Shown: positions 1,983-31,211 of the stretch, piece after piece
How positions within the stretch are numbered: the first letter of the stretch is position 1
How the letters are laid out: each line of letters starts with the position of its first letter
Origin: Luteibacter yeojuensis
GTDB lineage: Bacteria; Pseudomonadota; Gammaproteobacteria; Xanthomonadales; Rhodanobacteraceae
NCBI RefSeq assembly: GCF_000964085.1
Contig: NZ_JZRB01000016.1
Span: forward strand, 62,001-126,000
DNA: 64,000 bases
Direction: 5' to 3'
The notes under the pieces: generated by a model
The model's database searches: none
Told to the model about the DNA's origin: nothing
The model's input: only the letters and a program-made list of their open reading frames with translations
Program-made: the position numbers and the translations under genes

Positions 1983-3344
1983 GTGGCGACTGTCCATGAA
2001 CGTGCCGGGCGCGAAAACGCGCCGTTGCTGCTGCCGCTGCTGGCGGGCGGCCCATCACGCGCCATCGCGTGGCGCGATCGCCAGGCCATCAGCGCCGCCA
2101 CGTTCCTCGCGCACGTGCGGCAGGTGGCGGCCTTGCTGCCCGAGGCCGTGGGCGCCGTGAACCTGTGCGAAGACCGCTACGCGTTCCTCGTCGCCTTCAC
2201 CGCGCTGGTGCTGCGTGGCCAGGTGAACCTGCTGCCGCCGTCGCGCGCGCCGCACGCCGTCGACGAAGTGATGGCGAACCACGCCGGCTGCTACGCCATC
2301 GGCGAGCTGGCGCTCGACCCCGCACCCGCGGGCTACCTGCGCATGCCGGCGCTCGACGCCGCCGCGCTGGCCCATGGCGAGGTGCCATCGATCGCCGCCG
2401 ACGCCATCGTCGCCATCGGCTATACCTCGGGTTCCACGGGCAAGCCCAAGCCCAACATCAAGACGTGGGGCAGCTTCCACGCCAGCAACACCGGCAATAT
2501 CCAGATGCTCAACGCCGCCATCGGCGGGCCGTTCGATATCGTGGCCACCGTGCCGCCGCAGCACATGTACGGCATGGAGATGTCGGTGGTGATGCCGCTG
2601 ATGTCCGAGGTCAGCGTCCACGCGGGGCGCCCGTTCTTCCCGGCCGACGTGGCCACCGCGCTGGCGTCGATGCCCGAGCCGCGCGTGCTTGTCACCACGC
2701 CGGTGCACCTGCGTGCCATGGTCGAGTCGGGGGTGCGCCTGCCTTCGCTGGCCGCCTTCGTTTCCGCGACGGCGCCGATGCCGGTGGAGCTGGCCCGCGA
2801 GGCCGAGGCGTGCTTCGACGCGCCGCTGCACGAAGTGTTCGGCTCGACCGAGACCTGCGTGTTCGCCAGCCGCCGCACGGCCGTCGAAGAGGAATGGTCG
2901 CTCTACGAGGGCACCACCCTGCATTCGCAGCCGGATGGCACCCTGGTCGATGCGCCACAGCTGGCGGAACCGATGGCCCTGGCCGACATCGTCACGTTGC
3001 ATGGGGGTGGCCGCCGCTTCCGGCTGTGTGGCCGCAACACCGACCTGCTCGAAATCGCGGGCAAGCGTGCGTCGCTGGGCGACCTCAACCGCCGCCTGCT
3101 CGCCATCGAGGGCGTGCGCGATGGCGTGTTGTTCCAGCTCGACGAGCCGGATACCGCCGGGGTCCGGCGCATCGCCGGCCTGGTGGTGGCCCCCGGCCTC
3201 ACGGCGGACACAGTCATGGCCGCCCTGCGCGCCGCCATCGATCCCGTCTTCCTGCCGCGCCCCCTTCGCCTCGTCGAGGCCCTGCCGCGCAACGAGACGG
3301 GCAAGCTGCCCCGTGGCGCCCTGCTGGCGCTGGTGCAGCGCTAG
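1983..3344 (+). CDS. AMP-binding aryl/acyl:ACP ligase of the XanA2/ApeH type
   Basis: Adenylate-forming enzyme of 453 residues. It has the ATP loop YTSGSTGKPKP at about residue 147, an FGSTET motif near 288, and the C-terminal catalytic lysine in NETGKLPRG near 440. The N-terminal words AIAWRD and NLCEDRYAF, and the short length, resemble ligases of aryl polyene and xanthomonadin clusters, which load hydroxybenzoate onto a dedicated ACP. I infer that role because a XanB2-like chorismatase and an ACP lie at 23.6-25.1 kb. The GTG start at 1983 follows GGAAGGGGGG and avoids a long overlap with tsaC. A fatty acyl-CoA ligase is the alternative. Confidence 0.8.
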   Translation: MATVHERAGRENAPLLLPLLAGGPSRAIAWRDRQAISAATFLAHVRQVAALLPEAVGAVNLCEDRYAFLVAFTALVLRGQVNLLPPSRAPHAVDEVMANHAGCYAIGELALDPAPAGYLRMPALDAAALAHGEVPSIAADAIVAIGYTSGSTGKPKPNIKTWGSFHASNTGNIQMLNAAIGGPFDIVATVPPQHMYGMEMSVVMPLMSEVSVHAGRPFFPADVATALASMPEPRVLVTTPVHLRAMVESGVRLPSLAAFVSATAPMPVELAREAEACFDAPLHEVFGSTETCVFASRRTAVEEEWSLYEGTTLHSQPDGTLVDAPQLAEPMALADIVTLHGGGRRFRLCGRNTDLLEIAGKRASLGDLNRRLLAIEGVRDGVLFQLDEPDTAGVRRIAGLVVAPGLTADTVMAALRAAIDPVFLPRPLRLVEALPRNETGKLPRGALLALVQR

Positions 3345-4729: not shown

Positions 4730-6604
4730 ATGTCCCAGTTTTCATTGCTCGGCAAGCGCCGTTTCGCGCCGTTCTTCTGGACGCAGGCGCTTGGCGCGTT
4801 CAACGACAACGCGTTCCGCAACGCCATGGTCATGCTCGTGGCGTTCCAGATGGCGCTGCCCGATAGCCAAGTGTCGCTCTACACGAACCTGGCCCCCGCG
4901 CTGTTCATCCTGCCGTACTTCCTGTTCTCCGCGACCGCCGGCCAGCTCGCGGAGAAGTTCGAGAAGACGCGGATCATCCGCTACGTGAAGCTGTTCGAGA
5001 TCGCCGCCATGGCCATCGCGGCCATCGGCTTCCATACGCACCACATCTCGCTGCTGTTGCTGGTGCTGTTCCTCATGGGCGTGCACTCCACGGTGTTCGG
5101 CCCCATCAAGTATTCGATCCTGCCGCAGGCGCTGGAGCGCAGCGAGCTGGTGGGCGGCAATGCGCTGGTGGAAACCGGCACGCAGCTGGCCATGCTCATC
5201 GGCATGATCGTCGGCAATTCGCTGATGCTGATCGAGGGCTACGGCACGCTGGCGGCGTCGCTCACCACCATCGCCATTGCGGTGGCGGGTTACCTCGTGT
5301 GCCGCGCCATCCCATCCGCGCCGGCCACGGCGCCCGAGCTGCGCTTCAACTGGAACCCCCTCTCCGAAACCTGGCGCGTGCTGAAGCTGACGCACGAGGA
5401 TCGCGCGGTGTTCAACGCGGTGCTGGGCATCTCGTGGTTCTGGTTCTTCGGCACGGTGATGATCGCGCAGCTGCCGAACTACACGCGGCACGTGCTGGGT
5501 GGCGATGGCTCGGTCAACACGCTGGTGCTCACGCTGTTCTCGCTGGGCACGGGCATCGGCTCGCTGCTGTGCGAGAAACTGTCGCGCAAGCGCGTCGAGA
5601 TCGGCCTCGTGCCCATGGGCGCGTTCGGCCTTACCGTGTTCGCCATCGACCTGTATTTCGCGCGGCCGGCGGTCGCGGCGGGTGCCTCGCTGACATGGCA
5701 CGCGTTCCTTGCCGTGCCCGGCGCCTGGCGCGCGGCCATGGATCTCACGCTCATTGGCGCGTTCGCCGGCTTCTACGTCGTGCCGCTGTTCGCATTCGTG
5801 CAGAGCCGCGCGCCGCGCGAGCGGCTGTCCCGCATCATCGCGGGCAACAACATCGTCAACGCGCTGCTGATCTGCATTGCGTCGGGTTTTGGCATCGGCC
5901 TCACGGCCATGGGCCTCGATACGCCCACCATCTTCCTCGTCACCGGGCTCGTGAACATCGCCGTGGCGGTGTACATCTTCACGCTGGTGCCCGAGTTCAT
6001 GATGCGGTTCATGACCTGGGTGCTGGTGAACACGCTATACCGGGTGCGCGTCGATGGCCTCGCGAACGTACCCGACGAAGGCGCGGCGGTGGTCGTCTGC
6101 AACCACGTGAGCTTCATGGATCCGCTGATCCTCATGGCGTGCGTGCGCCGGCCCATGCGTTTCGTCATGTACTACAAGATCTTCAACATCCCGGTGCTGA
6201 ATTTCATCTTCCGCACGGCCAGGGCGATCCCCATCGCCGGGCGCAACGAGGATCCCGCGCTGATGGAAAAAGCGTTCGAGGCCATCGATGCCGCGCTCGC
6301 CGGGGGCGAGGTGGTGTGCATCTTCCCGGAGGGTGGCCTCACGCGCGATGGCTCGATCCAGGCCTTCCGCCCGGGCATCGACCGCATCCTGGCCCGCCGG
6401 CAGGTGCCCGTCGTGCCGCTGGCGCTACGTGGCATGTGGGGCAGCATCTTCAGCCGTCGCGACGGCATGCTGCGCCGCGCGCGGCTGCCACGGCGGTTCT
6501 GGTCGCGCATCGAACTGGTGGGTGGCGCAGCCTACCCCGGGGGCGCCGCCAACGCGGCGGTGCTCGAGGCGCGCGTCAGCGAGTTGCGCGGCGACAAGGC
6601 CTGA
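4730..6604 (+). CDS. MFS transporter-PlsC acyltransferase fusion (LplT/Aas-like)
   Basis: Inner-membrane protein of 624 residues. Residues ~10-410 form an MFS permease of the lysophospholipid transporter type (opening FWTQALGAFNDNAFRN). Residues ~440-620 form a PlsC domain with NHVSFMDP (the HX4D catalytic motif, ~458) and FPEGG (~532). It probably flips lysophospholipids inward and re-acylates them. Many relatives add a third AMP-ligase domain to supply acyl-ACP. That domain is absent here, although a separate ligase gene lies two genes upstream. The gene is 62 nt downstream of purD. Confidence 0.88.
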   Translation: MSQFSLLGKRRFAPFFWTQALGAFNDNAFRNAMVMLVAFQMALPDSQVSLYTNLAPALFILPYFLFSATAGQLAEKFEKTRIIRYVKLFEIAAMAIAAIGFHTHHISLLLLVLFLMGVHSTVFGPIKYSILPQALERSELVGGNALVETGTQLAMLIGMIVGNSLMLIEGYGTLAASLTTIAIAVAGYLVCRAIPSAPATAPELRFNWNPLSETWRVLKLTHEDRAVFNAVLGISWFWFFGTVMIAQLPNYTRHVLGGDGSVNTLVLTLFSLGTGIGSLLCEKLSRKRVEIGLVPMGAFGLTVFAIDLYFARPAVAAGASLTWHAFLAVPGAWRAAMDLTLIGAFAGFYVVPLFAFVQSRAPRERLSRIIAGNNIVNALLICIASGFGIGLTAMGLDTPTIFLVTGLVNIAVAVYIFTLVPEFMMRFMTWVLVNTLYRVRVDGLANVPDEGAAVVVCNHVSFMDPLILMACVRRPMRFVMYYKIFNIPVLNFIFRTARAIPIAGRNEDPALMEKAFEAIDAALAGGEVVCIFPEGGLTRDGSIQAFRPGIDRILARRQVPVVPLALRGMWGSIFSRRDGMLRRARLPRRFWSRIELVGGAAYPGGAANAAVLEARVSELRGDKA

Positions 6605-11799: not shown

Positions 11800-11876
11800 G
11801 GCTAGGTAGCTCAGCTGGTCAGAGCGCGGCACTCATAATGCTGAGGTCGGCGGTTCGAGCCCGCCTCTAGCCACCA
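11800..11876 (+). tRNA. tRNA-Met (CAU), elongator type
   Basis: A complete 77-nt cloverleaf with encoded CCA. The acceptor stem GGCTAGG pairs with TCTAGCC (one G-T wobble); the D arm is GCTC...GAGC; the anticodon loop is CTCATAA with anticodon CAT; the T arm is GGCGG-TTCGAGC-CCGCC. The pattern resembles elongator tRNA-Met more than initiator tRNA because base 1 pairs normally with base 72. A tRNA-Ile read after lysidine modification cannot be excluded from sequence alone. Confidence 0.93.
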
Positions 11877-23622: not shown

Positions 23623-24621
23623 TCAGCGGTAACGCCACCCGTCGATTTCCACCAGCAGCTCTTCACGGCAGATATCGCCGTGGACCATGAGCAGCGGCGC
23701 CGTGGGCCAGTGCGCATCGGCGAAGGCCTTCACCGTGGCGGCATCCCCGGCATGGCGAACGTAGGCTTTCAGGGGCGCGCGGGCGTCGAAGCCCGCCGGC
23801 ACGCCACCGTTCGCCAGCAACGCATCGAGGTTGCGGCCGGTTTCGGCCAACTGGGCGGCGAGATCGCCCGTGTGCGCGGAGGCATGCCCCACCACGGCCG
23901 CGGTGCCCGAGATGGCCAGCACATCGTCGGCGGGCAACAGCGTGCCGCGGGCGAAGCTGGGGGGCGTGCGGCCGTACTGGCGCGGGTACTGCCAGGCGCT
24001 GACCTGGCGCGGGTTCTCCACGCGGCTGCCCGGGCGGTCGGTGGCCAGCAGGTACACCTGCAGCAGCCCCTTCGCCCCGTGGTGGCCAATGGCGGAGGCG
24101 GCCGGGAAGCCCTTGGCGAAGACCTCGCCCATGCCCGCGATGCGGCCCGTGCAGAACTGCTTGTAGCGCTCGTCGTCGCCGGCGCCGACGTTGATGTCGC
24201 CGAGGTAGTTCCAGATGCGCTGGACGTGGCACTCCGGTGCGGCGGCGACAAAGGCCGACAGCAGGCGGTAGGCGTATGCGGCAGCGCCTTCGGGGCCGGC
24301 GTGGTCGGCTTCGAAGCATTCCACGGCGGCGTAGAGCCAGCCGCCACCGCGCGCCCAGCGCAGGTCGCCGTCACTGCCGGCCACCACGTCGCCATCGACC
24401 GTCCACAGCTCGACCGGGGCCTCGCCCAGGGGCTCCAGCGCCACGCGCAGCCAGCGCGGGTCGTTGCTGACCGCGGCCGCCGACCCGAAGCCGAACGCGG
24501 CCAGCGTGCCGGGCGGCAGGGCGCCCGCCGGCGGTTCGCGGTACGTGACCGTGGGGGCGTTGGGGGCGGCGAGCGGGGATCGCTCGCGCATTTCGCTACC
24601 AGTGCGCATCGAGGCTTCCAT
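23623..24621 (-). CDS. xanB2: Chorismatase of the XanB2 type (hydroxybenzoate synthase)
   Basis: Chorismatases of the FkbO/Hyg5/XanB2 group hydrolyse chorismate; XanB2 of Xanthomonas gives 3- and 4-hydroxybenzoate for xanthomonadin and ubiquinone. The 332-residue protein shows the family words RIWNYLGDINVGAGDDERYKQ (positions ~140-160), QVSAWQYPRQYGRTPPSFARG (~225-245) and the active-site tail ICREELLVEIDGW. It is divergent from the ACP gene at 24786 and probably shares the control region at 24622-24785. Possible starts are residues 1, 5 or 11. The 3- versus 4-isomer cannot be told from sequence by eye. Confidence 0.9.
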   Translation of the reverse strand: MEASMRTGSEMRERSPLAAPNAPTVTYREPPAGALPPGTLAAFGFGSAAAVSNDPRWLRVALEPLGEAPVELWTVDGDVVAGSDGDLRWARGGGWLYAAVECFEADHAGPEGAAAYAYRLLSAFVAAAPECHVQRIWNYLGDINVGAGDDERYKQFCTGRIAGMGEVFAKGFPAASAIGHHGAKGLLQVYLLATDRPGSRVENPRQVSAWQYPRQYGRTPPSFARGTLLPADDVLAISGTAAVVGHASAHTGDLAAQLAETGRNLDALLANGGVPAGFDARAPLKAYVRHAGDAATVKAFADAHWPTAPLLMVHGDICREELLVEIDGWRYR

Positions 24622-24785
24622 AAAGACGCTGGCCCCATCATATCCTGCGCCCGCCCCCGGCGTTCACGGCGGGCCCTTCACGTGGCTGAATACAGGCCCG
24701 GCAGCCGGTGAAAAGCCCTGTGTTACACTCCGCCGCCGCTGCCATCCGGGGGGAGGCAGGCATCATCCGGGGAACACAGAGCACC

Positions 24786-25058
24786 ATGGCAACGCAAACC
24801 GAAGCACAAAAAGAACTCGCTGAACTGATCGTCACCAGCCTCAACCTGGAGACGGTGAAGCCTGCCGACATCGACCCCGAAGCGCCCCTGTTCGGCGGCG
24901 ACCTCGGCCTGGATTCGATCGACGCGCTGGAAATCGCCCTCGCGGTGTCCAAGCGCTACGGCTTCCAGCTGAAGTCCGACAACCCGGATAACCGCACCAT
25001 CTTCACCAGCCTGCGCACGCTGTCCGAGCACATCGAACAGAACCGCGCGGCCGCCTGA
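24786..25058 (+). CDS. Acyl carrier protein (XanC-like)
   Basis: A 90-residue carrier with the phosphopantetheine serine in GGDLGLDSIDALEIAL (Ser44). Elongated upstream codons do not resemble an ACP, so the ATG at 24786 is the start. It carries the aryl starter and growing polyene chain if the locus works like the xanthomonadin pathway. It is the first gene of a + strand run (ACP, hot-dog, acyltransferase, hot-dog) and lies head to head with the chorismatase gene. Confidence 0.92.
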   Translation: MATQTEAQKELAELIVTSLNLETVKPADIDPEAPLFGGDLGLDSIDALEIALAVSKRYGFQLKSDNPDNRTIFTSLRTLSEHIEQNRAAA

Positions 25059-25122
25059 CGGCCGTTCAGGCCGCACTGAGGTCCGCCATGGTTTGCTTCG
25101 GGCAAGCCGGGGCCCCACGACC

Positions 25123-25428
25123 ATGACCGACGCCAGCACGTATACCCACGCCTTCCGCTTCGGCGCAGGCCACCCCAGCCTGGCCGGGCATTTCCCCGGG
25201 CGGCCCATCGTCGCGGGCGTGCTCATCCTCGAACAGGCCGCGCTGGCACTGGGCGCGTGGCGCGGCGTGGCGGTGCGCCAGGTGGTGGACGCCAAGTTCC
25301 TCGCCCCCCTGCTACCGGAACAGGATGCCGTGCTGGAGCTCGCCGACGCCGGCGAGCACCGCTACCGGCTGCTCGTGCGGCGCGGCGATGACGTGCTGCT
25401 GCGTGGCACGCTCGAGGGCACGGCGTGA
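25123..25428 (+). CDS. FabZ-like hot-dog dehydratase (ApeI-like)
   Basis: A 101-residue single hot-dog domain with the dehydratase motif GHFPGRPIVAGVLILEQA near residue 22, as in FabZ-type 3-hydroxyacyl-ACP dehydratases of aryl polyene clusters. It would dehydrate the beta-hydroxy intermediate to the conjugated double bond. Shorter than FabZ (~150), it may need a partner such as the second hot-dog protein at 26365. It overlaps the acyltransferase start by the GTGA junction. Confidence 0.82.
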   Translation: MTDASTYTHAFRFGAGHPSLAGHFPGRPIVAGVLILEQAALALGAWRGVAVRQVVDAKFLAPLLPEQDAVLELADAGEHRYRLLVRRGDDVLLRGTLEGTA

Positions 25429-26378
25429 GCAGCCACTTCCAGCAGCGCGAGGGCGGCGGCTTCTTCGCCATCTGGCTCATCCGCACCATTGGCCTGCGGC
25501 TCGGCCGGCGCGTGGCGCGCGTGCTGCTGTGGCCCATCGCACTGTATTTTTTCCTGCGCCGGCCGGCCGAGCGCCTCGCGTCGCGCCTTTACCTCGCACG
25601 CGTGCTGGGCCGCGCGCCCACGAACCGCGATGTGTTCCACCACATCCACATGTTCTCGGCGACGCTGCTCGATCGCATGTTCTTCCTCTCCCGCGGCGAG
25701 CGCGATTTCAATGTCGACGTCGAGGGGCTGCAGGCCCTGGACGATTGCCTTGACGAGGGGCGTGGCGTGTTGCTGCTGGGCTCGCACCAGGGCAGCTTCG
25801 AATCGCTGCGTGCGCTCGGCCAGCGCCGGCCCGACGTGCCGCTGCGGGTGGTGCTCGACAAGCAGAAGACGCCCGCGCTCACCGCGCTGCTCGAGGCCCT
25901 TGCGCCGGACGTGGGGGCGGCGGTGATCGACGCATCCCGTGGCGGCACCTCGGTGGCGCTGGCCATGGGCGAAGGGGCGGCGGAAGGCGGCATGGTGGCG
26001 CTGCTGGCCGACCGCGGCCACGAGAAAGAAGCGTCGCGCGTGGTGTCCTTCCTCGGTACGCCCGCGCCGTTCCCGGCGGGCCCGTGGCTGCTGGCGTCGG
26101 CGCTAAAGATCCCGGTGGTGCTGTGCTTCGGTATCTACCTGGGCGGCAACCGCTACCGCCTCATCTTCGAGCACTTCTCCGACGGCATCGATATCCCGCG
26201 TGCCAACCGTGCACAGGCGCTGGATGCGCTGGTGGCGCGCTTCGCCTCGCGCATCGAGCACTACTGCCGCCTGTACCCGTTCAACTGGTTCAACTTCTAC
26301 GATTTCTGGCAGGAAACCAGCACGGCACGCGTGCCCACGGCCCCCGCGCCCCCACCAGTGCAGCATGCTGATGCCTGA
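25425..26378 (+). CDS. LpxL/HtrB-like acyltransferase of the pigment locus
   Basis: A 317-residue member of the lipid A late acyltransferase superfamily. There is an N-terminal hydrophobic segment (LWPIALYFFLRR), the catalytic HX4E motif in LLGSHQGSFESLRALG, and a C-terminal NWFNFYDFW typical of the family. In xanthomonadin and aryl polyene clusters a relative is thought to esterify the polyene to a lipid or glycerol carrier. The start is GTG at 25425, overlapping the previous stop. Confidence 0.88.
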   Translation: MSSHFQQREGGGFFAIWLIRTIGLRLGRRVARVLLWPIALYFFLRRPAERLASRLYLARVLGRAPTNRDVFHHIHMFSATLLDRMFFLSRGERDFNVDVEGLQALDDCLDEGRGVLLLGSHQGSFESLRALGQRRPDVPLRVVLDKQKTPALTALLEALAPDVGAAVIDASRGGTSVALAMGEGAAEGGMVALLADRGHEKEASRVVSFLGTPAPFPAGPWLLASALKIPVVLCFGIYLGGNRYRLIFEHFSDGIDIPRANRAQALDALVARFASRIEHYCRLYPFNWFNFYDFWQETSTARVPTAPAPPPVQHADA

Positions 26379-26832
26379 TAGCCCCACGCCCCCGACGATC
26401 GACAAGGCCGGCTTCGCCAGCCTGGTGCCGCACGCCGGCGACATGTGCCTGCTCGATGGCGTGGTCGCGTTCGACGACAACACCATCCACGCGATCAGCA
26501 CCACCCACGTGGCCGCCAACCACCCGCTGCGCGGGCCGCGAGGCCTGCACGCGGTGCACCTGGCGGAGTACGGCGCCCAGGCCACGGCCGTGCACGGCGC
26601 GCTGCGGGCCAGGGCCAGCGGCGCGACACAACCGCGCCCGGGCATGCTGGTGAGCCTGCGCGGCGTGAAGCTCGCCGTCGACCGCATCGACGACCTGGCC
26701 GGCCGCCTGGATGTCTTCGCCGAGTGCCTGCTCGCGGACGATGCCGGCGCGCAGTACACCTTCCGCATCGAGCACGCGGGCCGCGAGATCGCGAGCGGCC
26801 GGGCGGCGGTGATCCACCCGGCGGCGCCGTAA
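26365..26832 (+). CDS. ApeP-like hot-dog dehydratase
   Basis: A 155-residue hot-dog protein. LVPHAGDMCLLDGVVAFDD and the downstream HPLRGPRGLHAVHLAEYGAQ match the ApeP type of dehydratase subunits in aryl polyene pathways. It overlaps the acyltransferase stop; ATG 26365 or 26371 may be used. It probably pairs with the small FabZ-like protein. The stop is only 5 nt from the stop of the convergent halogenase gene. Confidence 0.8.
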   Translation: MLMPDSPTPPTIDKAGFASLVPHAGDMCLLDGVVAFDDNTIHAISTTHVAANHPLRGPRGLHAVHLAEYGAQATAVHGALRARASGATQPRPGMLVSLRGVKLAVDRIDDLAGRLDVFAECLLADDAGAQYTFRIEHAGREIASGRAAVIHPAAP

Positions 26833-26837
26833 CGCGT

Positions 26838-28433
26838 TTACGCCACGAGATCGAACAGCTTCGTGCGCGCGCCTTCGATATCCACCATATCTTCGTAGCC
26901 GTCCATCAGCGACGGGTACAGCGCGGCCGAGCGCTCGATGATGCCGGCGGCGAGCAGGCGCATCATGTTGACGTTATTGCGCAGGCGTGCGGCCAGCGCA
27001 TCGTCGTCGAGCACGTCGTGCAGCGTGCGGTTCATATCGGCGAACCAGGTGAGGTCGCGCTGGTCCATCATGTGCTTGCGGTTCACCTTGGCCGACACGG
27101 CATGCCAGCGCTGGAAGAACGCCTGCATGCGGATGTTCAGCTCCTGGCTGGCCGTGAGCTCCGGGCTCATGTGCGCGATGAACCCGGCATCGCCCAGTCG
27201 GTTCTGGAAGACGATCTGGCAGAGCACGCCCCAGTAGTAGGCGTAATCCCAGATGACCTTGATCGGTAGCACCTCCGGGTCGCCGAACAGGTTGTACTGC
27301 CCCTGGTACATACGCAGCGTGCCGTCGTAGAACGAGAAGAACAGGCGCTCGTACAGGCGCGCGTGCGGCGCCAGCGCCGTGCCTTCGCGGTCAAGGCCCA
27401 CCAGCAGCGTGATGTACGTGTTGGTGATGGCGATGAAGTCGCTGCCGGGCGAGTAGAACGGATCGAGGAACGCGCCGGCCTCGCCGGTGAGCGCCCAGCG
27501 ATCGGACGAGAACATGCGCGCGCAGCCATACGAGAAATGGCGGAAGAACGCGAAGTCGAGGAGCTTGTCCTTGCGCGCTTCGATTTCCTTCGCCAGCACG
27601 GGCTGGTGTTCCCACAACCACACCATGGCCTTGTCGAAGGTGTTCATGTCGCTGAGTGGGTGCGTGGCCGCGTCGGCGACGATGCCGACCGAATGCGCGC
27701 CCGACGACAGCGGGATCAGCCATACCCAGTAACCGGGGCCCACCAGGTGGTTGGTGGAGCGCCAGCGCTCCGGCGGGTGGCAGCGATCCTTCCATTCGCT
27801 GTCGTCGCACCAGCCATCGATCTCGAGGCGGTCGTCCACGCGGAACCACACGGCATTGGCGTGGTGCCCGTTATCACGCGTGAGGTCGAGCTTGCGCCGC
27901 ATCAGGCCGGCGCGGCCGCTGGCGTCGAGCAGCCAGCGCGCCTGCAGTGCGCCATCGCCCGCCTCGCTGCTGTAGCGCACGGTGTGGGGTGCGTCGCCGC
28001 TGCCGATGTCGAAGCCGCGCACGGTGATGCCTTCGCGGAAATCGATGCCGCGGCGGGCGGCTTCGTCGCCCATGAAGTTTTCGAGCTTGCCGCGGTCGAT
28101 CTGGTAGCTGGGCGTGGGCAGCACGGCGCTGACGCCCAGTTCCTGCACGTCGGCCAGGTCGTCGCGGCCATCGGAGAAGAAGAAGCGGAAGCCGAACTTG
28201 CGGATCTGTTCGGTCTCGAGGTGGTCGAGCAGGCCCAGCGTATCGGCGAAATAGTGCGCGGCGATCTCCACCGTGGATTCGCCGACCTTGAACGCTGCTT
28301 CTGGCAGCGGCCGCGTGTGCCGCTCGAGCACCACGATATCCATGTCGGGGTAGGCCCGCTTGAGCTGCATGGCGAGCGACAGGCCGGCCAGGCCTCCCCC
28401 GAGGATGACGGCGTCGTGCGTGGTCTGGTCCAT
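26838..28433 (-). CDS. FAD-dependent halogenase of the pigment locus
   Basis: A 531-residue flavin enzyme. GGGLAG at residues 12-17 binds FAD. FKVGES at 48-53 carries the catalytic lysine (Lys49) that forms the halogenating species. WVWLIP at 236-241 is the WxWxIP halogenase hallmark that separates these enzymes from monooxygenases. Xanthomonadins are brominated aryl polyenes, so this enzyme is the likely ring brominase; the halide and timing are inference. It follows the GT2 gene by 23 nt on the same strand and is convergent with the hot-dog gene. Confidence 0.9.
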   Translation of the reverse strand: MDQTTHDAVILGGGLAGLSLAMQLKRAYPDMDIVVLERHTRPLPEAAFKVGESTVEIAAHYFADTLGLLDHLETEQIRKFGFRFFFSDGRDDLADVQELGVSAVLPTPSYQIDRGKLENFMGDEAARRGIDFREGITVRGFDIGSGDAPHTVRYSSEAGDGALQARWLLDASGRAGLMRRKLDLTRDNGHHANAVWFRVDDRLEIDGWCDDSEWKDRCHPPERWRSTNHLVGPGYWVWLIPLSSGAHSVGIVADAATHPLSDMNTFDKAMVWLWEHQPVLAKEIEARKDKLLDFAFFRHFSYGCARMFSSDRWALTGEAGAFLDPFYSPGSDFIAITNTYITLLVGLDREGTALAPHARLYERLFFSFYDGTLRMYQGQYNLFGDPEVLPIKVIWDYAYYWGVLCQIVFQNRLGDAGFIAHMSPELTASQELNIRMQAFFQRWHAVSAKVNRKHMMDQRDLTWFADMNRTLHDVLDDDALAARLRNNVNMMRLLAAGIIERSAALYPSLMDGYEDMVDIEGARTKLFDLVA

Positions 28434-28456
28434 CCCTTGTACCCCTTGCGGTTGGT

Positions 28457-29215
28457 TCAGTGCGTGGTGGCGTCGCCGATGATCGTTGGCGTGGCGCGCG
28501 AACGTCGGTAACTGGACACGATGTGGCCGTAGTGGATCAACCGGCCGATCGTGTACGTGGTGATGCGTGTCACGTCACGCACCGGGCTGAAATGGCTGAT
28601 GCGCAGGTCGCCCGCGTAACGCGAGGCGATGGGCACCGAGACCACGCCGATGCCGCGCTCGCGGCAGGCGGTGATCAGCACGGCGGCTTCGAAGACGAAG
28701 TTTTGCGCAGGCAGGTCGACCAGGTCGAGCGCGGCGCGCGGGTAGAGGCGCTGGCCGCTCTGCGTATCGGCGATGGGGCGGCCGCAGGCCCACGAGATGC
28801 CCCAATCGGCGACGGCATTGGCGCGCCGGCGCCCGGTCGGCTGCTGTTCGCGCGCGAGCAGGCGCGCGCCGATGACGATGGCACCCGGGTGCATGCGGCT
28901 GGCCTCGAGCATGGCCGGGATATCGCAGGCCAGGTGTTGGCCGTCGCCGTCCATGGTGATGACGCCGTCGAACCCCTGGCGAAGGGCCTCGCGGAACCCC
29001 GCGCGCAGTGCCTCGCCCTTGCCCAGGCGTGCGTCGTGACGGAGCAGGGTGACGGGCAGGGCGGCGACGATCTCGGCCGTGTGGTCGTCCGAGCCGTCGT
29101 CCACCACGATCACCGGCATGCCAAGCGACAACGCGCCCCTGACCACGCTTTCGATCGCCCGCTCCTCGTTGAGGCAGGGGATCAGCACGCAGTAGCGGTT
29201 GCCGCGGGCATTCAC
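28457..29215 (-). CDS. GT2 family glycosyltransferase
   Basis: A 252-residue DPM1-like glycosyltransferase. VDDGSDDHT (residues 38-46) and DGDGQH (89-94) bind nucleotide and metal, and TQSGQRLYPR follows. No C-terminal membrane domain is present. The GTG start overlaps the preceding stop as GTGA, so it is translated in the same operon as the ketosynthase genes. It may glycosylate the polyene or a carrier lipid. Confidence 0.88.
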   Translation of the reverse strand: MNARGNRYCVLIPCLNEERAIESVVRGALSLGMPVIVVDDGSDDHTAEIVAALPVTLLRHDARLGKGEALRAGFREALRQGFDGVITMDGDGQHLACDIPAMLEASRMHPGAIVIGARLLAREQQPTGRRRANAVADWGISWACGRPIADTQSGQRLYPRAALDLVDLPAQNFVFEAAVLITACRERGIGVVSVPIASRYAGDLRISHFSPVRDVTRITTYTIGRLIHYGHIVSSYRRSRATPTIIGDATTH

Positions 29216-30012
29216 GGGATGCCGCCGATATCGATGTGTAGGTCGAGGCCTTGGGCGGCGCCCACCCGCAGGGCCGCGGGGCGGGCGGCGGCCAGCGCGC
29301 GGAACAGCGGCACGCCCTTCGCGGACGGATTGCTCGCGGCCACGCCATCCATCCACGCATCGCCCGTCGCGGCGCCGGCGCTGTTGCCCGGTTCCGGCGA
29401 GATATCGAGGCGGATGGCCGCGCCGTCGGCGCGCGGCGACAGCACCAGCGCCGCCGCGAATGGGCCCGTGGTGCCGGTCATGCCGCCGAGCGGGCCCGTG
29501 CCGGCGATGTCGTAGCTGGCAAGCAGCACGTCGCGGTCGTCGGCCACGGCCAGGGTGGCCGCCTCGAGCAAGCCCGCACCGAAGCTTTCCTCGCCACCGC
29601 TGATGGCGCTGGAGGCGGCATGGCAGTGCGTCGCGATGGTCCAGTAACCCGCCGGCGCGTTGTGCACCGAGTTATGGAACTTCGTGGGTGAAAGCTCGGC
29701 CGGTACGGTGGCCAGCGTCGCGCACATGTAGTCGGTGATGGTCTGGTCGCCGTGCGCCGAGGCGAATACGCATGGCAAGGTGGCGGCATCGAGCCCGCTC
29801 ATCGCCACGGCCTGCCCGGCGGCCGCGGCGGCCAACAGCACGCTCTCGGGCGCGCGGCGGCGCTCGTTCGGCGGCAGGGTGTCGGCCACGGGGCGCTCGT
29901 GGCCACCCGGCATGGCGCCCCCCATGGCCACCTCGCGGAAGGCCTGCCACGTCGGCGTCCCCGGTGCCCACAGGCCGATGCCCTTCACCCACACGGTAAG
30001 CGCGGCGCTCAT
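29212..30012 (-). CDS. Beta-ketoacyl synthase chain-length-factor-like protein
   Basis: A 266-residue protein of the short ketoacyl-synthase-like group (Pfam Ketoacyl-synt_2). It lacks the TACSSS catalytic motif; the equivalent region reads THCHAASSAISGG. FASAHGDQTITDY and KFHNSVHNAPAGYW are characteristic. Such proteins pair with a true ketosynthase and set chain length, as in ApeC and type II polyketide CLFs. It begins at an ATGA overlap with the upstream ketosynthase. Confidence 0.85.
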   Translation of the reverse strand: MSAALTVWVKGIGLWAPGTPTWQAFREVAMGGAMPGGHERPVADTLPPNERRRAPESVLLAAAAAGQAVAMSGLDAATLPCVFASAHGDQTITDYMCATLATVPAELSPTKFHNSVHNAPAGYWTIATHCHAASSAISGGEESFGAGLLEAATLAVADDRDVLLASYDIAGTGPLGGMTGTTGPFAAALVLSPRADGAAIRLDISPEPGNSAGAATGDAWMDGVAASNPSAKGVPLFRALAAARPAALRVGAAQGLDLHIDIGGIP

Positions 30013-31211
30013 GCGGGCACCCCCTGGCGGGCGAAGGCCAGGCAGGCATTGTTTCCACCGAAGCCAAAGGAGTTGCTGAGCGCGATGCGCACGTCGGCGT
30101 GTTCCACCTGCCACGCCATCTGCGGGCCGCAGAGCGGATCGGGCGTGGTGGCGCCAAGGTTCGCGGGCACGACGCCATCGCGCATCGCCAGCAGGGTCAG
30201 CGTCGCCTCGAGGATGCCGGCGGCGCCGAGCGTGTGGCCGGTGAAGCCCTTGGTGGAACTGGCGCGCGTGGTGGCCGGGAAACTGCGCGCGACAAGCGCG
30301 GCTTCCACCTCGTCGTTCTTCTGGCTGGCCGTGCCGTGCAGGTTGATGTAGTCGACATCGCCCGCCTCGATGCCCGCACGCGCCAGCGCATCGCGCAGCG
30401 CGAGCTCGGCGCCAAGGCCCTCCGGGTGCGGCGTGGACATGTGGTGGGCGTCGCTCGCTTCGCCGTAGCCGATGAACAGCGGTGCCTGCTCCCCTTCGCC
30501 CGCGCGCTCGAGCAGCGCGAACCCCGCCGCCTCGCCGATGCTGATGCCCTTGCGGTTGGCGTCGAACGGCTGGCACGGCTCGGCAGATACCAGCTCCAGC
30601 GAGTTGAAGCCGAACAGCACGCTATCGCACAGCGAATCGACCCCGCCGACCACGGCCGCGTCGATGAGGCCGAGGCGGATCATGCGCTCGGCATTGGCGA
30701 ACACCTTGGCGCTGGAAGAGCATGCGGTGGCCACGGTGATGCAGGGGCCCTCGAGGTCGAACACGCGGGTGACGAAGCCGGCGAGCGAATGCGGCGTGTG
30801 GATGGCGGGCCGCAGCAGGTCGCGCGGCACCACGCCGTGGTCGAGGCGGCGGTAGGCTTCCTCGGTGGCGCCGATGCTCGCGGTGGAGGTGCCAAGCAGC
30901 ACGGCCACGCGGGAGGCGCCGTAGCGCCCACGGGCGGCGCGAACGGCGTCGATGAAGCCATCCTGGCGCAGCGCCAGCCAGGCGAGCCGGTTGTTGCGGC
31001 ACTCCCATTCGGCATGCTCGCGCGGCAGGGGCTCGTCTTCGACGCCCGCGACGCGGCCGATCCAGCAGGGTAGCGGCGAGGTGCTGAAATCGTTGGCCAC
31101 GAGGCCGCCGGCGGAGGCGGCGATGGCGCGTGAGTGGGCTTCGAGGCCGCGTCCAAGCGCCGAAGTGGCGGTGAACGCGCGGATGGCTAGGGGAGGCATG
31201 AGGTGCGGCAT
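30009..31211 (-). CDS. Beta-ketoacyl-ACP synthase of the pigment locus
   Basis: FabF-like condensing enzyme, 400 residues from ATG 31211. The catalytic triad is complete: Cys164 in VATACSSSAK, His292 in LHGTASQKND, and His326 in STKGFTGHTLGAAG; GFGGNN closes the fold. It would elongate the aryl starter with malonyl-ACP together with the CLF partner. The start follows AAAGGATAGG; ATG 31199 is an alternative. The 77-nt gap to the divergent YdcF gene must hold both promoters. Confidence 0.92.
   Translation of the reverse strand: MPHLMPPLAIRAFTATSALGRGLEAHSRAIAASAGGLVANDFSTSPLPCWIGRVAGVEDEPLPREHAEWECRNNRLAWLALRQDGFIDAVRAARGRYGASRVAVLLGTSTASIGATEEAYRRLDHGVVPRDLLRPAIHTPHSLAGFVTRVFDLEGPCITVATACSSSAKVFANAERMIRLGLIDAAVVGGVDSLCDSVLFGFNSLELVSAEPCQPFDANRKGISIGEAAGFALLERAGEGEQAPLFIGYGEASDAHHMSTPHPEGLGAELALRDALARAGIEAGDVDYINLHGTASQKNDEVEAALVARSFPATTRASSTKGFTGHTLGAAGILEATLTLLAMRDGVVPANLGATTPDPLCGPQMAWQVEHADVRIALSNSFGFGGNNACLAFARQGVPA

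Follow-up and report, generated by a model that had tools for sequence, protein, structure and literature searches.

The xanthomonadin-type locus and its nine genes

The window analysed here is a stretch of 64,000 nucleotides of the Luteibacter yeojuensis genome (contig NZ_JZRB01000016.1, positions 62,001 to 126,000), and the system in question is a group of nine intact open reading frames at window positions 23623-31211, which is a xanthomonadin-type (xan-type) aryl polyene (APE) cluster. The first-pass annotation had placed in these 7.6 kb a chorismatase, an acyl carrier protein (ACP), two hot-dog dehydratases (DH), an LpxL-like acyltransferase (AT), a flavin halogenase, a GT2 enzyme, a partner protein resembling a chain-length factor (CLF) and a ketosynthase (KS), and profile matches together with a reading of the start codons bear this out, each frame being intact, in place and carrying the expected domain. 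The layout was also as first described, with the chorismatase read to the left, the ACP run to the right and the KS run back to the left, so that the two runs converge while XanB2 and ACP diverge. The nine genes are the following:

23623..24621, minus strand: XanB2-like chorismatase (332 aa) of the FkbO/Hyg5 type; PF21168, 107 bits; PDB 5ag3, E 2e-36, and 5a3k, E 5e-35
24786..25058, plus strand: ACP (90 aa, DSID attachment motif); PF00550; NF006617 (PRK09184), 137 bits, cut-off 70
25123..25428, plus strand: DH1, small FabA/FabZ-like hot-dog dehydratase in an ApeI-like place, ATG start; PF07977; NF000582
25425..26378, plus strand: LpxL-like (ApeD-like) acyltransferase; PF03279, 45 bits; HQGSFE stretch
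26371..26832, plus strand: DH2, ApeP-like hot-dog dehydratase (153 aa); PF22817, 34 bits, cut-off 27
26838..28433, minus strand: flavin-dependent halogenase (531 aa); PF04820, 50 bits; WVWLIP motif
28457..29215, minus strand: GT2 glycosyltransferase, GTG start; PF00535, 68 bits
29212..30012, minus strand: half-length CLF-like partner (ApeC / Lysobacter ORF16 type); PF13723, 89.5 bits; no CSS motif
30009..31211, minus strand: elongating KS (ApeO / Lysobacter ORF17 type); NF006618 (PRK09185), 502 bits, cut-off 407

DH1 scores below its cut-offs (21.5 against 23 bits for PF07977, 28 against 113 bits for NF000582), and the remaining eight proteins all have Pfam matches above the curated ones. The GT2 and CLF genes overlap by 4 bases, as do the CLF and KS genes. 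The KS carries TACSS, HGT and GHT, the ACP carries GLDSID, and the halogenase, whose closest structures by sequence are 3nix, PltA (5dbj) and CmlS (3i3l), carries GGGLAG and WVWLIP, the latter being the WxWxIP signature. The chorismatase reaches 168 bits with TIGR04444, below the 325 cut-off of that FkbO/Hyg5-like subfamily, and it conserves the Cys and Glu described as characteristic and catalytic in PMC7170507, where they are numbered Cys318 and Glu325, as they are here by our own count. In our reading of the alignment with the chorismatase structures the third CH-II residue is Ala in place of the Gly173 of Hyg5, so the sequence leaves the product class (3-hydroxybenzoate alone, or 3- plus 4-hydroxybenzoate) unfixed.

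The class assignment follows the presence of a XanB2-type chorismatase and of a PRK09185-type KS adjoining a half-length CLF-like protein, together with a dedicated ACP, two hot-dog dehydratases, an LpxL-like acyltransferase, a GT2 enzyme and a flavin halogenase. The match to the xanthomonadin scheme proposed at first thus stands as far as the gene set goes, the KS and ACP scoring above their PRK cut-offs and the same locus recurring in relatives, but the cluster is not self-sufficient: it has no ketoreductase (KR), exporter, LolA or ApeG-like gene, and its proposed ligase lies 20 kb away.

The proposed starter ligase

The idea that the system is without a starter ligase was discarded because of one further gene inside the window, which had not been included in the first gene list:

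1983..3344, plus strand: XanA2/ArcT-like AMP-ligase (453 aa, GTG start), proposed aryl-ACP starter ligase; PF00501; between sua5/yrdC and purD

This predicted XanA2-like gene would provide, from outside the cluster, the hydroxybenzoate AMP-ligase of a xanthomonadin-type system. It was the only match to a motif probe for AMP-ligases in the loci scanned, it is 57% identical to the ligase adjoining XanB2 in another genome (G082, locus L167), and as a single match per genome it is present in 64 of the 65 family genomes with a xan-type KS; the exception is G041, in which 14 of 54 candidates were scored and no match was found. One gene away, by purD, an MFS transporter and a PlsC-type acyltransferase are fused in a protein of 624 aa (4730-6604), which resembles LplT-Aas minus its ligase domain.

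Genes missing from the locus

The compactness of the locus is derived, because the ApeG-like protein, the LolA, the MMPL exporter and the KR found at the corresponding sites of relatives are all missing from it. The three sites are:

25059..25122, no strand: ACP/DH1 junction (64 bases); site of an ApeG-like membrane protein (HYP) in many relatives; absent in the window
26371..26378, no strand: AT/DH2 junction (8-base overlap); LolA and the MMPL exporter are found here in other genera and in 13 of the 22 Luteibacter-genus genomes laid out; absent in the window
26833..26837, no strand: DH2/halogenase convergent gap (5 bases); other genera carry a FabG-like KR after DH2; absent in the window

None of the 22 Luteibacter-genus xan loci laid out, that of the window included, has a KR, and the LolA-MMPL pair is missing at nine of them. 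One of these nine pair-less loci (G006, L179:7086-7211) still shows a 42-residue LolA-start remnant, 60% identical, at the AT/DH2 junction, and this is a trace of the lost export module. No in-cluster KR, MMPL exporter or LolA was found at the window locus, so that, compared with a single self-sufficient ape-type cluster, the ApeH ligase, the ApeQ KR and the ApeLM export functions are all out of place. In two genera (G061, L194; G029, L195) the xan locus is without dehydratases, KR and exporter, and the second APE locus, described next, retains its own.

A second, reduced aryl polyene locus

When the whole genome was searched with the export proteins of relatives (E up to 1e-3), MMPL and LolA relatives were matched only on contig C86 (28-34% identity for MMPL, 27% for LolA), and the best KR match in the genome, at 43%, lies there too (C86:33880-34608), among 41 SDR matches genome-wide. 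The C86 locus runs from about 33.9 to 44.0 kb in the order ACP1, GT2, LolA, MMPL, two KS, PlsC-type acyltransferase, ApeG-ApeI fusion, thioesterase, ApeP-like DH, KR and a FUSC protein, and it therefore carries ApeM-, ApeL-, ApeQ-, ApeI-, ApeP- and ApeK-like genes, with the DH assigned by similarity to the L160 copy. The ApeG-like protein of relatives' xan loci matches the N-terminal half of the ApeG-ApeI fusion (28% identity, E 1e-10).

The second loci of siblings (e.g., G010 and G018) add a CLF, an ACP2, an LpxL-like enzyme, a methyltransferase and a further KS, which is 41-42% identical to the window KS. These five, including the elongating KS, are absent from the second locus of our genome and of G001, G003, G008 and G011, which together form the window's clade, and C86 and its counterparts appear to have lost them there; they come from four operon places, and the four related genomes are single-contig assemblies. 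C86 consequently holds no KS-CLF pair of the ApeO-ApeC kind.

From these gene contents, the window locus is probably the synthase half of a xanthomonadin-type APE pathway, whose KR and export module would come in trans from the reduced C86 locus; the losses at the window cluster would then have been tolerated apparently because the second locus still supplies the export genes and the KR. The best reading of the two partial loci is that they form one pathway or else share an export module.

Two further observations concern second loci. Upstream of ACP1 on C86 lies a tryptophan-dehydrogenase ScyB-like gene (L148:16103-17266, that is C86:45102-46265; 398 bits, below the cut-off of 600), 93-97% identical in four siblings. 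G038 (L247), a genome with no xan KS, has a reduced second locus in which LolA, MMPL, CLF, KS3, KR and a match to the ApeG-ApeI fusion were found; at the cut-off used, nothing matched the remaining second-locus genes.

Losses at either locus among 35 genomes with both

Both loci were laid out in 35 genomes, and each function was counted as present at both loci, at the xan locus only, at the second locus only, or at neither. In that order the counts are KS 28/7/0/0, CLF 27/8/0/0, ACP 27/8/0/0, LpxL 28/7/0/0, DH-I 31/1/3/0, DH-P 32/0/3/0, KR 2/0/32/1, LolA 11/6/18/0, MMPL 10/6/19/0 and GT2 34/1/0/0, the zero for a second-only KS arising because the genomes were chosen for having a xan KS. Nine of these ten common functions are never missing from both loci; the exception is KR, which G043 alone lacks at both. 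Five cells included in these counts are unsafe, namely the KR of G042 (a 32% match far from the cluster), the second-locus CLF, ACP and DH-I of G036 (contig ends) and the LolA of G006 (the remnant), and the KR of G034, also counted, is in two pieces without residues 152-231 and probably broken.

Losses also run the other way: in G004, G009, G012, G013 and G022, as well as in G032 from another genus, the LolA-MMPL pair is kept at the xan locus and missing from the second locus. G032 lacks the same five second-locus genes as the window's five-genome clade in addition to LolA-MMPL, and keeps the xan exporter; in its fusion gene the ApeG half is absent and the ApeI half kept, with the xan ApeG-like gene also kept, and it is the only genome without the ApeG half among the 34 with a fusion match. 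The marker KS of its second locus shares 83% identity with that of our genome; the four other clade members reach 91-94% and other genomes of the Luteibacter genus 85-90%, and this argues against G032 having received the locus from the window's clade. In G043 the second locus is reduced to LolA, MMPL, ApeG-ApeI and DH, and the KS, CLF, GT2, acyltransferase and ACP lie near hemF.

Distribution of the two exporter types

We searched 119 relatives and our own genome with the KS and the second-locus exporter, and the genus also with the xan-type exporter. The family contributes 71 genomes, of which 65 have a xan KS (at least 50% identity); G007, G024, G026, G038, G044 and G049 were left out, G007 (80% complete) because its xan KS was not found, both exporter types being in pieces there. 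An exporter was scored anywhere in the genome, some xan-only genomes having a xan locus that is split or at a contig end, and for the second-locus type at most eight candidates were scored per genome. The xan-type exporter alone was found in 36 genomes, the second-locus type alone in 19, both, as in G010, in 10 and neither in none, with 10.5 expected for the last class (hypergeometric 1.6e-9, kinship ignored). These counts are upheld because a renewed search of the 10 second-only genomes outside the genus with the xan-type exporter, in which every candidate was scored, gave 0 of 10, against 4 of 4 for controls with both types.

On a KS tree of 68 rows, built by a quick method and with many weak nodes, the minimum number of changes is 8 for the xan exporter and 11 for the second-locus exporter. 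A Markov model in which loss of the xan exporter depends on the second-locus exporter was preferred (likelihood-ratio test 16.6, 1 degree of freedom, p 4.7e-5), as was dependence both ways (29.3, 2 degrees of freedom, p 4e-7), these figures being subject to tree error and to the chi-square approximation.

Selection on the retained genes

The retained genes of both loci are under purifying selection. For the nine xan genes the pairwise NG86 ratio of nonsynonymous to synonymous substitution (dN/dS) lies at 0.06-0.16 among the five clade genomes and at 0.08-0.19 in seven siblings; for eleven retained second-locus genes the two ranges are 0.055-0.185 and 0.06-0.25. The KS3 rows of the window's clade, being cross-matches to different KS genes, were set aside. 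No internal stop was found in the retained genes of either locus in the clade, two stop flags being read-overs at gene ends. That the window cluster is a decaying remnant is hence hardly credible: the KR, exporter, LolA and ApeG-like genes are indeed gone, but the losses are clean and local, and all nine genes remain open with constraint like that of the siblings.

Purifying selection on C86 bears on another explanation, in which the second locus of the clade now serves a different lipid or fatty-acid pathway and makes no aryl polyene, while the window pigment is not exported or is exported otherwise. The retained KS1, KS2, KR, DH, thioesterase, acyltransferase, GT2 and ACP would make a plausible self-contained acyl-assembly set, and FUSC-family and acyl-CoA dehydrogenase genes adjoin the locus. 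We nevertheless consider this improbable, as the second locus retains an APE-type LolA, MMPL and ApeG-ApeI fusion, and not one of the 65 family genomes with a xan KS is without both exporter types.

A proposed composite pathway or a shared exporter

The wider proposal, to which we would give not quite an even chance, is that complementary loss, several times in Rhodanobacteraceae, has left two once-complete APE loci as a composite machine making one hybrid halogenated aryl polyene lipid. Starter synthesis, the ACP, the KS-CLF, the lipid acyltransferase and the halogenase would come from the xan-type locus of the window's clade, and the KR, the helper KS enzymes and the complete ApeG-L-M export module from the second. 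In the probable pathway outlined above, XanB2 would convert chorismate to a 3- or 4-hydroxybenzoate starter, the AMP-ligase at 1983-3344 would load it onto the ACP, the KS-CLF would elongate it with malonyl units and the two hot-dog enzymes would dehydrate the chain; the LpxL-like enzyme and GT2 may then join the chain to a lipid, the halogenase may halogenate the ring, probably with bromine, and the KR and the ApeG-, LolA- and MMPL-type export module would be provided in trans by C86, the physical sharing itself being inferred from gene content.

A different arrangement keeps two separate pigment pathways that share the exporter alone, the second locus making its own lipid, the MMPL-LolA module being promiscuous and the xan product being completed by a housekeeping FabG. 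It agrees with the many genomes having only the second-locus exporter that retain the second-locus core set (G005, G006, G018, G019, G029, G041, G042, G050, G061 and G065), and with G015 and G017, which lack a KR even without a second locus. We hold it to be unlikely in the window's clade, where, as in G032, the KS-CLF is missing from the second locus, which by the logic of ApeO-ApeC would not achieve full polyene elongation alone, and G043, with its second locus stripped to export and dehydration genes, also speaks against it.

Several points count against one composite pathway. Besides G015 and G017, which have neither an in-cluster KR nor a second locus, G025 and G028 are likewise without both; another FabG can probably serve in such genomes, and because of these four the claim of KR sharing was lowered. 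In the window's clade DH, GT2 and ACP genes are retained at both loci, which leaves some redundancy in the set, and redundant exporters alone, without a merged product, would also allow the losses. In the conservative independent-pairs tests the tree yielded 4 and 5 pairs with good support for the exporters, and 2 to 4 when KR was set against the second locus; none of the pairs was contrary, but median p was 0.5 to 1 and the pairs are too few for significance. Finally, deletion of LolA in Lysobacter enzymogenes left the cells yellow, as reported in PMC3691225. Taking all this together, one composite pathway appears to be the likeliest account in the window's clade and sharing of the exporter only a weaker one, and within the composite account the sharing of the KR is weaker than that of the exporter and its least certain part.

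If complementary loss has indeed joined two loci into one pathway, prediction cluster by cluster misses both the product and the exporter. The natural losses suggest which APE parts may be interchangeable (KR, DH and ApeG-L-M export) and which move together (KS-CLF-ACP-LpxL), and the window's clade would lend itself to testing by genetics how specific the exporters are for polyene lipids.

Gene order among relatives and neighbouring features

The gene order, held at first to differ from that of Xanthomonas and to be of interest for that reason, turned out to be old and ordinary, because the layout recurs across Rhodanobacteraceae and in other families of the order, so we dropped it as a point of interest. 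The window KS is 82-85% identical to its counterparts at nine Luteibacter loci and 77-90% to those of 21 other genomes of the genus. The same block stands in Luteibacter, Rhodanobacter, Dyella and Frateuria, flanked by hemF and gpmA beyond the KS and often by glmU beyond XanB2, and its recurrence between hemF and glmU in many family members is far from a chance association. Beyond the family, a KS run facing the dehydratase/acyltransferase run was found at seven of nine loci (G118, G082, G071, G084, G083, G072 and G077), XanB2 diverging from ACP being visible in G082 and G077; the order differs in G104, and G073 shows the KS run only. The numbering of the open reading frames in Lysobacter enzymogenes also matches this layout.

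The halogenase is patchy: the xan regions of G015, G017 and many Dyella and Rhodanobacter loci are without one, and the 20 remaining Luteibacter-genus loci among those laid out have it. Between GT2 and the halogenase, or the site where a halogenase would lie, the xan loci of G015, G020, G035, G047, G056, G064 and G069 and locus L048 carry a Na+/H+ exchanger-like gene that is missing in the window. The sole RNA gene found in the window is a tRNA-Met (CAT) at 11800-11876.

Comparison with known systems

The closest described order is that of Lysobacter enzymogenes, given in PMC3691225 as XanB2, ACP, hypothetical, DH, acyltransferase, LolA, exporter, DH, KR, hypothetical, GT2-type, CLF and KS. 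Judged by that account of ORF1-17, the window has this order minus five genes plus the halogenase. Both share XanB2, ACP, DH, acyltransferase, DH, the GT2-type ORF15, the CLF-like ORF16 and the KS of ORF17, with the same kind of KS-CLF, whereas the KR (ORF13), exporter (ORF11), LolA (ORF10) and hypothetical protein (ORF7) of Lysobacter are not in the window, and the halogenase of the window is not in the Lysobacter cluster as described there. Deletion of ORF13 is reported to give white cells (PMC3691225).

The APE clusters of E. coli, Xenorhabdus and Acinetobacter, as presented in PMC8253772 and PMC8358021, resemble the window in their ApeO-ApeC-like KS-CLF and their ApeD-, ApeI- and ApeP-like enzymes. 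For E. coli, ApeO-ApeC is proposed as the elongating KS-CLF, ApeQ as the KR, and ApeG, ApeL, ApeM and ApeN as dedicated export machinery (PMC8253772); ApeO-ApeC makes the full polyene in vitro, with help from ApeR (PMC8358021). According to these accounts the E. coli cluster differs in being single and co-directional, with its own KR, ligase and exporter, and in taking 4-hydroxybenzoate from UbiC, encoded outside the cluster. The missing export part of the window corresponds to ApeG, ApeL and ApeM, and against the E. coli frame as a whole the window locus appears to have lost the export part and the KR, and the second locus the KS-CLF part.

Two APE clusters in Luteibacter are already in print: for five L. 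mycovicinus strains PMC11165876 lists a xanthomonadin-like cluster beside another aryl polyene cluster, and PMC9965599 predicts a xanthomonadin cluster for L. flocculans. The relevant sections of these species descriptions list or predict the clusters from genomes and do not discuss gene loss or sharing, and we found no report of complementary loss between two APE loci in the open-licence literature. The nearest parallel is the arcuflavin system of Azoarcus BH72, described in PMC3949708 with a XanB2-type chorismatase, halogenase, glycosyltransferase and KS at one locus and an AMP-ligase, exporter, LolA and ACP at another. It differs in that its reductase is in the KS locus, its polyene is coupled to a dialkylresorcinol and one gene set has been divided, whereas Luteibacter has two formerly complete APE loci from which apparently different genes were lost. 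Since both unlinked loci are reported to be needed in Azoarcus (PMC3949708), the mechanism proposed for Luteibacter would be a variant of a known theme.

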